Assembly: GCF_003052165.1 (NCBI RefSeq)
Contig: NZ_CP024869.1
Location: forward strand, 124,001 to 188,000
Length of the DNA stretch: 64,000 nt
DNA from: Dietzia sp. JS16-p6b
GTDB lineage: Bacteria > Actinomycetota > Actinomycetes > Mycobacteriales > Mycobacteriaceae
Direction of reading: 5' to 3'
The translations under genes and the position numbers were made by a program. The notes under the pieces are model-generated. The model saw nothing but the letters and a program-made list of their open reading frames with translations. It ran no database searches and was not told the origin of the DNA. This document shows positions 2,633 to 10,513 of this stretch, in pieces; position 1 is the stretch's first letter, and each line of letters opens with the position of its first letter.

Positions 2633-4225
2633 CTAGGTTGAGGCTAGTAGGTCTCGCATCCGTTCGGCGGGGGTCTCGAAGTTGAGGGTCTTGCGGGGGC
2701 GGGCGTTGAGCTCCTGGGCGACGTGCTCGAGATCCTCGGGGCCGAAGACGCTCAGGTCGGTTCCCTTGGGGAAGTACTGGCGCAGCAGCCCGTTGGTGTT
2801 CTCGTTCGATCCCCGCTGCCAGGGGCTGGCCGGGTCGCAGAAGTACACCGGGCAGCCGGTGGCGATCGAGAACGACTTGTGACCGGCCATCTCGCAGCCC
2901 TGGTCCCAGGTCAGCGATCCGCGCAGGTGCTCGGGCAGGGTCGAGATGACCTTGACGAGCTGGTCTCGGACGGCCTCGGCGGTGTGGCCATCTGGCAGGT
3001 GCACGAGCATGACGTAGCGGGTGCTGCGCTCGACCAGGGTGCCGATCGCCGAGGCGTTCCCGGCGCCCAGGATTAGATCTCCCTCCCAGTGGCCGGGCAC
3101 CGCCCGGTCCTCGACCTCGGCGGGCCGGTCGGAGATCATCACCATCTCATCGACGAACCTGCTGCGCCGCTGATCAGGGCGCTTGCGAGGGATCCGCCTG
3201 GCACGACCGGTCCGGAGAGCTGCCTGGACCTGCCGCTTGAGGCCACCGCGGGATTGCAGGTACAGGGCTTGGTAGATCGTCTCGACGCACACCCATATAG
3301 CCTGATCGTCGGGGAACTGCCGGCGCAACGCTCCGGCAATCTGCTCGGGCGAGTGCCGTAGCGACAACCGCTCCTGGATGAACGCCGCCAGAGCCGGGTT
3401 GGCGGCGATCTTGGCGACCTTGGGCCGGAACCGTCGCAGCACGCTGCGCCGGTGGGCCTGATGTGGCTCGTAGCGGCCCTCATTGCTGCTGTTACGTGCG
3501 ATCTCGCGAGAGACCGTACCGGGACTGCGGCCTACCTGGCGGGCGATCTCGCGGATGCCCTTGCCCGCCCGGCGCAGGTCGGCGATCTTCTCCCGCTCGA
3601 GTACTGACAGGTAACGGCTCGAGATGACCTTCTCGACCCGCTCGACAGGCACGATTTCCACCGGCACCGCCTGGCGGCCCGGGACGCACTCCAAGACACT
3701 CATCAGACGGTTATAGAGGCCGACGTCCGGGCCGGCGGGGACAAACGCCGATCGTGGCTGACCATTGCGTTTGGTCACGCCCTTATCCCAGTCCAGCGCC
3801 GTTTCGACGCTGATCCCCACCGCCTTGGCCGCCCCACGACGATCCATCGACCGGGCCCGCAAGAGCAGGTACTCGCACCGCCTGGTCGTCGACTTGCGGG
3901 TAACGCCATCGCAGTGGCGAACCCACAACCCGGCGGCCATCCCGACCCGGTACACCACCGACGAGCCGACCCCGACGGCACGAGCGACGTCCATCGGCTC
4001 CATCCCCGACGCCAACGCCGCCCTGATCGTCGCTCGCTCGTCACCAGTTGAATGCCGCTTCGTCGACACCGGCCACTTGCGCGAGTGCGCCAACGCAAGC
4101 GCCCGCCCGTAATGCACCCCGACCCGGCCGGCCGCCGCACGAACCGAAAGCCCGCCACAAACCAGCGACTCCAGCTCCGACTCCTGCACCGGCGAGATCT
4201 CCCACACAGAGCCCTCAGCAGCCAC
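2633..4225 (-). CDS. IS30-family transposase with long N-terminal helix-turn-helix extension
   Basis: A 530-residue DDE transposase that cuts and joins the ends of its element. The catalytic core shows GHWEGDLI (Asp383), TWDQG (Asp441) and RGSNEN (Glu475), with IS30-type spacing. The DNA-binding part is unusually long: besides the family helix-turn-helix GIREIARQVGRSPGTVSRE (223-241), about 200 residues precede it with up to three further HTH-like segments around 26-45, 77-96 and 129-147. Common IS30 transposases are shorter (roughly 320-480 residues). GTG start at 4225. No frameshift or internal stop, so probably active. Confidence 0.93.
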   Translation of the reverse strand: MAAEGSVWEISPVQESELESLVCGGLSVRAAAGRVGVHYGRALALAHSRKWPVSTKRHSTGDERATIRAALASGMEPMDVARAVGVGSSVVYRVGMAAGLWVRHCDGVTRKSTTRRCEYLLLRARSMDRRGAAKAVGISVETALDWDKGVTKRNGQPRSAFVPAGPDVGLYNRLMSVLECVPGRQAVPVEIVPVERVEKVISSRYLSVLEREKIADLRRAGKGIREIARQVGRSPGTVSREIARNSSNEGRYEPHQAHRRSVLRRFRPKVAKIAANPALAAFIQERLSLRHSPEQIAGALRRQFPDDQAIWVCVETIYQALYLQSRGGLKRQVQAALRTGRARRIPRKRPDQRRSRFVDEMVMISDRPAEVEDRAVPGHWEGDLILGAGNASAIGTLVERSTRYVMLVHLPDGHTAEAVRDQLVKVISTLPEHLRGSLTWDQGCEMAGHKSFSIATGCPVYFCDPASPWQRGSNENTNGLLRQYFPKGTDLSVFGPEDLEHVAQELNARPRKTLNFETPAERMRDLLAST

Positions 4226-4271: not shown

Positions 4272-4299
4272 TTCGCCGTGTGGGGTGAAATGACGAGGG

Positions 4300-4321
4300 C
4301 CCCGGTGGCGGACCACCGGGG
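4300..4321. terminator. Hairpin terminator downstream of the 48-residue peptide gene
   Basis: CCCCGGTGG and CCACCGGGG form a perfect 9-bp GC-rich stem with a 4-base loop. It lies 40 bases beyond the stop codon of the minus-strand small peptide gene and just outside the insertion sequence. There is no strong U tract, as is common in actinomycetes. Confidence 0.7.
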
Positions 4322-4360
4322 CGCTCGTGCTGGGCTCCGAGAGCCGATCAGCGGGGTCGA

Positions 4361-4507
4361 TCAGGAGCCGAAGAGCTCCGCGCCGCCGCCGAGGGTGTCG
4401 AGGATGTAGGCGGGCAGCCGGAGAAGACCGTCGATCGCGGCGGACCCGACGTTCGGGACGAGGTCGACGGAGCCGTTGGCGAGGGAGTACCAGAAATCAG
4501 AGAACAT
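4361..4507 (-). CDS. 48-residue acidic amphipathic peptide, PorH/PorA-like in character
   Basis: A short gene with a good ribosome-binding site (AAGGA, eight bases before ATG 4507) and its own strong terminator. The product begins MFSDFWYSLANGSVDLVPN and ends GGGAELFGS. It has no signal peptide, one Arg, five acidic residues and regularly spaced hydrophobic residues that could form an amphipathic helix. The small channel peptides PorA (45 aa) and PorH (57 aa) of Corynebacterium are likewise signal-less, acidic, Ser-containing and encoded by adjacent genes. I see no clear sequence identity with them, so this is resemblance in size and composition only. It could also be an unrelated small protein. 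Confidence 0.65.
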   Translation of the reverse strand: MFSDFWYSLANGSVDLVPNVGSAAIDGLLRLPAYILDTLGGGAELFGS

Positions 4508-4669
4508 TGGCGTGTCCTTTCGAGAGGTGGCGCCCCACTGTCTGGCGGGACTTGTGGTTCACGTTACTGACGATCGACCGTGGTTTCCACAAACTCGCCC
4601 TCAGAGTAAACCTTCTCAGGCTATTCGCATCCCGCTCACTGGGGGGTTCCTACTTTATGAGGATCGTCC

Positions 4670-4675
4670 TATGAT
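4670..4675 (+). promoter_or_regulatory. Candidate -10 box upstream of the 61-residue peptide gene
   Basis: TATGAT is one of the best -10 matches in the window, set in a relatively AT-rich stretch of the 236-bp divergent region (4508-4743). A weak -35 (TTCCTA, 4647-4652) lies 17 bp upstream. The leader would be about 65 bases. Confidence 0.4.
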
Positions 4676-4743
4676 CAGATCAGGGCGACCGAGATGTAGT
4701 CCAACGGGTGGGCTGTCCAGGGCCGCTCTGGAAGGAGTTCATC

Positions 4744-4929
4744 ATGTGGGGAAGTCTCGTGGAGTTCGCCGGTTCGTCCGTCGGCGTCGTGGGCAGTCTG
4801 GCCACCGACACAGGGTCGACGCTCGTCGACACCCTGACATTCCTCCCGGTTCACATCGTGGAGGCTCTCTGGATGACGGTGTTCGGGATCGCCGAGGACC
4901 TGGGGTCGACCATCATGCCGCCGGTCTGA
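4744..4929 (+). CDS. 61-residue acidic amphipathic peptide, PorA/PorH-like in character
   Basis: ATG 4744 follows AAGGAG by seven bases; an in-frame upstream ATG lacks such a site. The peptide starts MWGSLVEFAGSSVGVVGSL and continues with alternating hydrophobic, Ser/Thr/Gly and acidic residues. It contains six acidic residues, no Lys or Arg, and no secretion signal. It is transcribed away from the 48-residue peptide gene, with a shared 236-bp upstream region, and each gene ends in a GC-rich hairpin. The pair therefore looks like two well-expressed small structural peptides. Similarity to mycolate-layer channel peptides is by size, charge and pairing only. Confidence 0.65.
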   Translation: MWGSLVEFAGSSVGVVGSLATDTGSTLVDTLTFLPVHIVEALWMTVFGIAEDLGSTIMPPV

Positions 4930-4953
4930 CAGGTCGCACGACGGGGTGATTCT

Positions 4954-4982
4954 CAGCCGCCTCCCCTCGTGGGGGGCGGCTG
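4954..4982. terminator. Hairpin terminator after the 61-residue peptide gene
   Basis: CAGCCGCC (4954-4961) pairs with GGCGGCTG (4975-4982), and a further C-rich/G-rich run extends the stem toward a TCGT loop. It lies 24 bases past the stop codon. Confidence 0.7.
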
Positions 4983-5045
4983 ATCCCGTCGGGAGGCGGC
5001 CGTCGACAAGGGGTGGATCGCGAGGGGCGGGTCGCCCGCGCGCAT

Positions 5046-10116: not shown

Positions 10117-10174
10117 ATGCAGAAATTGTGCATACTGTTGTGCAGTAGTAACGGCAACCAGCTAGGGAGTGACA

Positions 10175-10513
10175 GTGGCGCAGCAATTCCAGGTCAAGTA
10201 CATCGATGACCTCGACGGAACAGAACTGGGTGACGAGGCTAATTCCCTCTCGTTCGCCTTCGAGGGCAAGGAATACTCCATCGACCTGAGCGACGAGAAC
10301 GCCCAAGCCTTCCGGGATGTCATGGCCCCGTACATCGCCGCTGGTCACCGCGTGACCGCGACCAGGGGCAAGCCGGCTCGCAAGGCTGCCGCCAAGTCCT
10401 CGTCGGGCGATACCAAGATCATTCGTGAATGGGCGAGGGAAAACGGCTTCGAGGTCTCCGACCGTGGCCGCATCCCGGCCGACGTGATGGAGGCCTACGC
10501 CGCCGCGAACTGA
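10175..10513 (+). CDS. lsr2: Lsr2 nucleoid-associated protein
   Basis: A 112-residue H-NS-like DNA-bridging protein of mycolata that silences AT-rich and horizontally acquired genes. The N-terminal dimerisation domain (residues 1-60) and the C-terminal DNA-binding domain ([17 protein letters not shown], with the RGR minor-groove motif at 97-99) are joined by an Ala/Lys/Ser linker. I chose GTG 10175 rather than the in-frame GTG 10169 because AGGGAG sits five bases upstream and MAQ is the usual family start. It is followed by a strong terminator and is monocistronic. Confidence 0.97.

Follow-up and report, generated by a model that had tools for sequence, protein, structure and literature searches.

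The question raised by this locus is whether two very short genes, lying back to back in a Dietzia genome and both unannotated, encode proteins of the mycolate outer layer comparable to the corynebacterial channel peptides PorA and PorH. The window, meaning the whole stretch of DNA analysed, is 64,000 nucleotides long and covers nucleotides 124001-188000 of a 3.72-Mb genome assembled as a single contig. With Dietzia as its source, the DNA does come from a mycolate organism outside Corynebacterium, as the original prediction had it. The features of the locus are the following.

4361..4507, minus strand: gene for a 48-aa leaderless acidic micro-protein (subfamily A), 48 codons, MFSDFW... GSAAIDGLL.LPAYIL... 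FGS, with three Gly-Ser pairs
4744..4929, plus strand: gene for a 61-aa leaderless acidic micro-protein (subfamily B), 61 codons, with five Gly-Ser pairs and without Lys or Arg
4508..4743, no strand: shared divergent upstream region, 236 nt between the two frames
4294..4328, minus strand: GC-rich hairpin behind the 48-aa gene, z -4.8, a probable terminator with no U run
4937..4995, plus strand: GC-rich hairpin behind the 61-aa gene, z -3.9, a probable terminator with no U run

Both frames were found where they had been predicted, at 48 and 61 codons, each with a ribosome site (CGAAAGGACACGCCA-ATG and GGAAGGAGTTCATC-ATG); an upstream GTG at 4708 would extend the 61-aa frame to 73 aa (K+R 1). 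The proposed common upstream region spans 236 nt here; where both genes occur, in 9 genomes, their starts lie 231-237 nt apart. A consensus promoter scan called no promoter in this region. Reading by eye picked out a -10-like hexamer, TATGAT, at 4670-4675, and the exact hexamer occurs in 2 of 6 aligned sequences. The GC-rich hairpin claimed after each gene was recovered against dinucleotide shuffles (z -4.8 and -3.9), none of 200 shuffles being as good for either; the terminator scan called no U-run terminator behind either gene.

The neighbours of the pair in the window are a transposase gene, a patatin-like gene and a sulfite/nitrite reductase gene. The transposase (2633-4225, minus strand; HTH_38 and rve domains), which we take to be IS30-like, separates the 48-aa gene from the patatin-like gene. 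An Lsr2 gene (10169-10513, plus strand) lies further along in a local dip of G+C (0.57-0.63).

Both frames evolve as proteins, since pN/pS was 0.33 for the 48-aa gene (pN 0.146, pS 0.441; 12 sequences, 66 pairs) and 0.45 for the 61-aa gene (pN 0.173, pS 0.388; 6 sequences, 15 pairs), and in both the greatest variation fell at third codon positions. Both are real genes under purifying selection. Conservation in relatives, on which the original prediction had made its case depend, was found for the 48-aa gene: 20 of the 23 Dietzia genomes carry an orthologue (E <= 1.3e-13), with the patatin-like gene on one flank in 19/19 other loci and nirA on the opposite side in 15/20. Of the five loci in which nirA was not seen, contig ends truncate three, and the other two (G012 and G014) show none within the 1.5 kb fetched. 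One genome that gave no 48-aa match (G010) has nirA at a contig start, the place itself not being assembled. G004 and G011 have no 48-aa orthologue, and no micro-gene appeared upstream of their nirA; their NirA proteins are 78 and 67 % identical, against 77 % for G012, where the 48-aa gene is present. The divergent arrangement fared less evenly: it holds in 9 of the 23 Dietzia genomes, where an orthologue of the 61-aa gene adjoins the 48-aa gene, and the pairing is not kept in the remainder, other species carrying the 48-aa gene at the same place without its partner.

The peptides had been described as acidic and nearly free of Lys and Arg, and their composition bears this out. K+R is 1/48 in the 48-aa protein and 0/61 in the 61-aa protein, D+E is 5 and 6, and the pI is about 4.05. 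Calculated average masses, Met included and without modification, are 4991.6 and 6324.3 Da. Among 193 window ORFs of 40-80 aa, K+R <= 1 occurred in two, exactly these genes, the 61-aa gene having entered the count as the 73-aa frame from the GTG at 4708 with K+R 1. The low charge carries less weight when the comparison is confined to the K+R content of real proteins of the window (P 0.04 for the 48-aa and 0.0016 for the 61-aa protein). Neither peptide has a positively charged N-region, and judged from composition a secretion signal is absent, as claimed. The predicted amphipathic character appeared clear in the 48-aa protein (mean helical moment z 4.4 against shuffles) and moderate in the 61-aa protein (z 3.1), whose best 19-residue hydropathy of 1.65 marks a nearly transmembrane-like stretch. 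Six corynebacterial PorA/PorH sequences gave z values of 1.7 to 3.7, a range that the window peptides reach or exceed. The 19-residue hydropathy of the subfamily C protein of the same genome is 1.61, and that of the 48-aa protein only 0.92.

In both window proteins Gly-Ser is in excess: serine follows glycine in 3/5 cases in the 48-aa protein (P 0.012) and in 5/6 in the 61-aa protein (P 1e-4), against 89/788 (11 %) in 34 coding-like window frames. An alignment of 15 distinct subfamily A sequences shows no variation at serines 13, 22 and 48, which have Gly before them in 14, 15 and 15 sequences, respectively; it was made without the orthologues of G007, G014 and G017, whose start positions are unclear. 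Paralogues of similar make-up share a core GS-x3-D, with Glu or another residue in place of D in subfamily E. The members read are 46-67 aa long and K/R-poor, and we grouped them for this analysis into about six subfamilies (A-F). Comparison of the subfamily A profile with a B/C profile built from separate sequences gave 75 % (E 2.5e-5, 22 columns) over GS-x3-D...P...L. Subfamily C lies beside purine-synthesis genes (named by eye) and has tandem copies in some genomes; subfamilies D and E have, again as judged by eye, argJ-like and arabinogalactan-region genes in their vicinity. Profile and neighbourhood searches also yielded an 'MGSL' branch of subfamily B, subfamily F and further paralogues.

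A first profile (A2, E <= 0.1) found members in 21/23 Dietzia genomes, four of them in the genome of the window: A, B, C at C1:795917 and D at C1:3251922. Outside Dietzia it matched in 18/128 genomes, with a best E of 0.001 in a 276-aa frame. A second profile (A8, E <= 0.01) reached 22/23, adding G011 (a 58-aa frame, E 1e-7) and losing G004, and matched in 3/128 genomes outside the genus (best E 0.004). Both window proteins are in the alignment of the first profile and the 48-aa protein is in that of the second, and their own matches follow by construction. No Pfam or NCBIfam family was found above cut-off for the superfamily members tested, both window peptides included. SpoIIGA-type matches of the window peptides (E 0.019 and 0.071), far below the curated cut-offs, were rejected. 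The subfamily A profile matched no PDB sequence (best E 0.71), the 61-aa protein had no match in plasmids, and the 48-aa protein had none in phages. By profile similarity, the window pair belongs to a Dietzia-wide, unannotated, Gly-Ser-rich superfamily present in 22 of the 23 genomes.

Frames of similar kind were seen beyond the genus. Gly-Ser frames of 46-48 aa with good ribosome sites occur in genus g9 (L218 3806-3946, L220 4180-4320, L221 1914-2054) and in genus g13 (L219 4032-4178, minus-strand numbering). Their place is conserved across the three g9 genomes and the one of g13, and changes among the three g9 sequences are mostly synonymous. In G030 the frame has a giant DUF5979 surface protein on one side and a sortase on the other, and in G034 too it lies by a sortase. 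Against a Dietzia-only profile these frames score 13.2-14.7 bits, with 10.3 for the best of 2000 shuffles; because other frames reach 13.0 bits, a marginal homology to the 48-aa window protein can be offered only as a lead, with a hint that the superfamily perhaps extends further into the mycolata. Separately, a large mycolata genome (G084, genus g22) has two frames of 38-39 aa, of the type MIPVIIDTGSAALNG... (L235 1031-1150 and L236 1034-1150, minus-strand numbering), that resemble subfamily E by eye.

What could such serines be for? In C. glutamicum, according to excerpts of PMC11066868, O-mycoloylation falls on Ser, and more rarely on Thr, in surroundings of Gly, Ala and Ser that follow no strict consensus, and mycoloyltransferases are themselves among the mycoloylated proteins. 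MytC mycoloylates PorA in vitro and is required in vivo for mycoloylation of PorA, PorH and ProtX (PMC11927696, in the portion available). The original prediction had stressed that its peptides contain serine, and these serines do lie in the Gly/Ala/Ser-rich context reported for O-mycoloylation, in a genome that encodes a MytC/Cmt1-type enzyme. On this sequence evidence the window proteins are probably O-mycoloylated on their conserved serines. Since Nocardia and Rhodococcus, too, are said to have Cmt1 orthologues (PMC11066868, in part), a MytC-type gene alone is no marker of a micro-porin system.

Gly-Ser pairs were also counted in the mycoloyltransferases of the same genome. In three of them serines follow Gly in 7/13, 6/15 and 5/15 cases within the N-terminal 120 residues and in 2/18, 4/16 and 14/34 in the rest of the protein, a contrast that is clear in one only. 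The corresponding genes are L239 655-1839 (minus strand), where the contrast is clear, L240 812-2209 (minus strand) and L238 412-1746 (plus strand). The MytC-like and PS1-like enzymes have few Gly-Ser pairs in the same N-terminal interval (0/7 and 2/11).

The homology to PorA/PorH that the original prediction had inferred did not emerge. The window pair has the size and charge of these peptides (48 and 61 aa, acidic, signal absence judged from composition). The NCBIfam PorA/PorH models match 3/3 corynebacterial sequences, below cut-off, and gave no match to the window peptides at E <= 10. Comparison by hhalign of the window families with corynebacterial PorA/PorH profiles returned 0.1-0.8 %, no signal; with the groEL2-linked families described below included, the values were 0.1-10 %, again no signal. 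This is a low-power test, its positive control also failing (corynebacterial PorA against PorH, only 4.8 %), and because even that comparison gives nothing, there is room for a very old relation. The corynebacterial alignments comprised 8 PorH-like and 14 PorA-like frames chosen by eye from 30 groEL loci in 41 genomes, the sequences being taken by position behind groEL; a PorH/PorA-like frame lay within the 1.5-kb flank in 19/30 of these loci. In Corynebacterium, porA and porH are located between groEL2 and ppk2 (PMC5944148, seen in part). The window pair is not at that place: groEL2 is at C1:3019388 in this genome, and other micro-genes stand behind it. On present evidence, judged by these comparisons, membership of the pair in the PorA/PorH families is very improbable.

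The groEL2 locus of the same genome (C1:3016349-3020986; locus L172 2350-6987) contains groEL2, micro-genes and a gene for a MytC/Cmt1-type mycoloyltransferase. The micro-genes are three, all leaderless (47, 52 and 47 aa; L172 4107-4995). Dietzia groEL2 loci were read in 21/23 genomes, G005 and G022 giving none and those of G004, G008 and G018 being cut by contig ends. A MytC-type homologue (65-100 % identity) follows the micro-genes in 18/18 uncut loci (L172, L175, L178-L183 and L186-L195), with two to five micro-genes between groEL2 and the enzyme; a first filter picked up at least one of these in 17/18, and a looser one did so in the eighteenth. As a control, 20 stretches from other genera were read, 19 of them long enough, the groEL copy being picked by full-length best match and taken as groEL2. 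Micro-genes of the Dietzia groEL2 types occurred in 0/19 and some low-K/R frame in 3/19; one more distant MytC-like gene (50 %) was found behind groEL2, along with one partial opposite-strand MytC match (38 % over 146 aa).

The Dietzia groEL2-linked enzyme scored 180 bits with Cmt1/MytC, 101 with PS1 and 91 with Ag85A, and its Cmt1 score is the highest among the six PF00756 genes of the genome. The Ag85C-like gene scored 96 bits with Cmt1, the PS1-like gene 145 against 585 with PS1, two others near-equally with Cmt1 and PS1 (122 against 119, 99 against 107), and the fifth had no PDB match. One groEL2-linked micro-gene gave a sub-cut-off match to PorACj_fam (NF038022, E 0.0097). No profile similarity was found between the groEL2-linked micro-proteins and the window superfamily. 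The groEL2-linked set, more than the window pair, is the likely counterpart of the corynebacterial porin locus. Among the literature matches listed, which give papers in excerpt, we found no report of this gene order in Dietzia; this is no proof of its absence from print.

Other candidate channels exist in the genus. MspA porins (PF09203) were found in 52/68 other genomes of the family and in 0/23 Dietzia genomes, of which 15 have a completeness of at least 90 %. The statement that Dietzia channels are of MspA type (PMC9233653, in the part available) is not borne out by these 23 genomes. MspA was rejected as the Dietzia channel on this count. A large PF11271 protein (DUF3068, named 'PorA') is encoded in 17/23 Dietzia genomes, this one included, and the 6 genomes without it are drafts of 64-87 % completeness. 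Here its gene (C1:3239297-3240535) lies 11-13 kb from the subfamily D micro-gene, and likewise in G002, G003, G014 and G017. A channel purified from D. maris reportedly has a subunit size near 35 kDa. The DUF3068 protein could be this porin, which was obtained from D. maris cell walls in a study that does not give its gene (PMC4901239).

The reading we favour, with a probability of about 0.52, is that both window proteins are micro-proteins of the mycomembrane, made without a leader, that function in the way of PorA, PorH and ProtX and are acylated on their Gly-Ser serines. Their export would need no Sec signal and would follow the route that PorA, PorH and ProtX take; the MytC-type mycoloyltransferase encoded behind groEL2 would transfer mycolic acid onto the conserved serines; and the acyl anchors would keep the proteins in the mycolate outer layer, assembled into small helical oligomers. 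Channels may be formed by some superfamily members, and the genus has yielded no MspA porin. Pore formation by the window pair itself is doubtful, and pairing of the two products with each other is among the least certain parts of the explanation. Counted against the mycomembrane reading are the lack of any detectable sequence relation to PorA/PorH or to the groEL2-linked set, the lack of linkage to mytC, the side-by-side arrangement in only 9/23 genomes, the presence of DUF3068 as a rival channel candidate, and the small Gly-Ser contrast in two of the three mycoloyltransferase N-termini.

The nearest alternative keeps the location and the acylation and drops only the pore: the proteins may be structural, linking mycomembrane to cell wall as ProtX-like components, with permeability left to the groEL2-linked set or to DUF3068. 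Dietzia has both of these other channel candidates, nothing in the analysis decides against this possibility, and we hold it to be a serious one, short of an even chance; through the shared parts its odds and those of the favoured reading are not additive. A second alternative places the proteins in the inner membrane, each as one hydrophobic helix modulating a transporter or an enzyme, with neither export nor mycoloylation. The 61-aa and subfamily C proteins, with hydropathies of 1.65 and 1.61, come near a transmembrane helix, and the patatin-like neighbour is stable (19/19 loci). However, the 48-aa protein is amphipathic with a hydropathy of only 0.92, the near absence of K and R leaves no positive-inside anchor, and several paralogues in the same genome with invariant Gly-Ser serines would go unaccounted for; we consider this reading unlikely.

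Secreted surfactant or signalling peptides that likewise need no leader, as the phenol-soluble modulins of staphylococci do, would, by analogy, match the amphipathic character and the multiple copies per genome. Invariant Gly-Ser serines argue against such peptides, as do the window neighbours, none of which is an exporter (patatin-like gene, transposase, sulfite/nitrite reductase), and the lack of a phage match for the 48-aa protein and of a plasmid match for the 61-aa protein, so that we rate this quite improbable. A toxin-antitoxin reading of the pair is not favoured. That these are true PorA/PorH orthologues moved away from groEL2 would explain size, charge, missing signal and two adjoining genes, but the NCBIfam models that reach the corynebacterial sequences below cut-off do not reach the window peptides, no profile matches, and the groEL2 place is occupied by other micro-genes; the chance of such a move appears very small. 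Chance open frames, suggested by the shortness of the genes and by the want of a Pfam or NCBIfam family above cut-off, are refuted by pN/pS, by conservation in 20/23 genomes and by the rarity of K/R-free frames.

More tentatively, the favoured mycomembrane reading may be extended to the genus. Dietzia may have an outer-layer system resembling that of Corynebacterium, with a groEL2-micro-gene-mytC locus for small mycoloylated porins replacing MspA together with a second, larger set of leaderless mycoloylated micro-proteins, and with Gly-Ser as a shared tag that also marks some exported mycoloyltransferases. This second set, about six subfamilies with the window pair among them, is apparently undescribed. 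As far as the literature examined goes, Corynebacterium is the sole genus for which protein O-mycoloylation and micro-protein porins have been demonstrated, and the passage of signal-less proteins across the membrane to the mycolate layer is described as an open question (PMC12632848, in excerpt). If the reading is right, comparison with a second genus that has a large set of its own would allow the export signal and the acylation rule to be tested, the modifying enzyme would be encoded beside one group of its candidate substrates, and the channel obtained from cell walls of Dietzia maris (PMC4901239) would have candidate genes. Because one or no Lys/Arg gives few or no tryptic peptides, a trypsin-based Dietzia vesicle proteome (PMC8027190, seen in part) may have missed such proteins.

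Among known systems, MspA porins are outer-layer channels of mycolata, a role that the window proteins may share; they differ in having a domain of about 180 residues and larger, signal-bearing subunits (PMC9233653, in the part available), and PF09203 is found in 0/23 Dietzia genomes. PorA and PorH (NF033925, NF033938) differ from the window pair in showing no detectable homology to it and in their genomic place; the window genes are divergent, not tandem, and their products have several Gly-Ser pairs. They are alike in being mostly under about 65 aa, without a presequence, acidic and apparently helix-prone, and often encoded by two adjoining genes; in both cases the host is a mycolate organism that encodes an enzyme of MytC type. 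The groEL2-linked micro-proteins of Dietzia are followed by mytC and stand at the corynebacterial porin place, unlike the window pair, which lacks linkage to mytC; they resemble it in being leaderless and K/R-poor, 45-59 aa long, with serines in TGSL/FGSL. ProtX of C. glutamicum, likened here by description, represents the same class, that of signal-less O-mycoloylated mycomembrane proteins (PMC12632848, in excerpt), in which the window pair would take its place.
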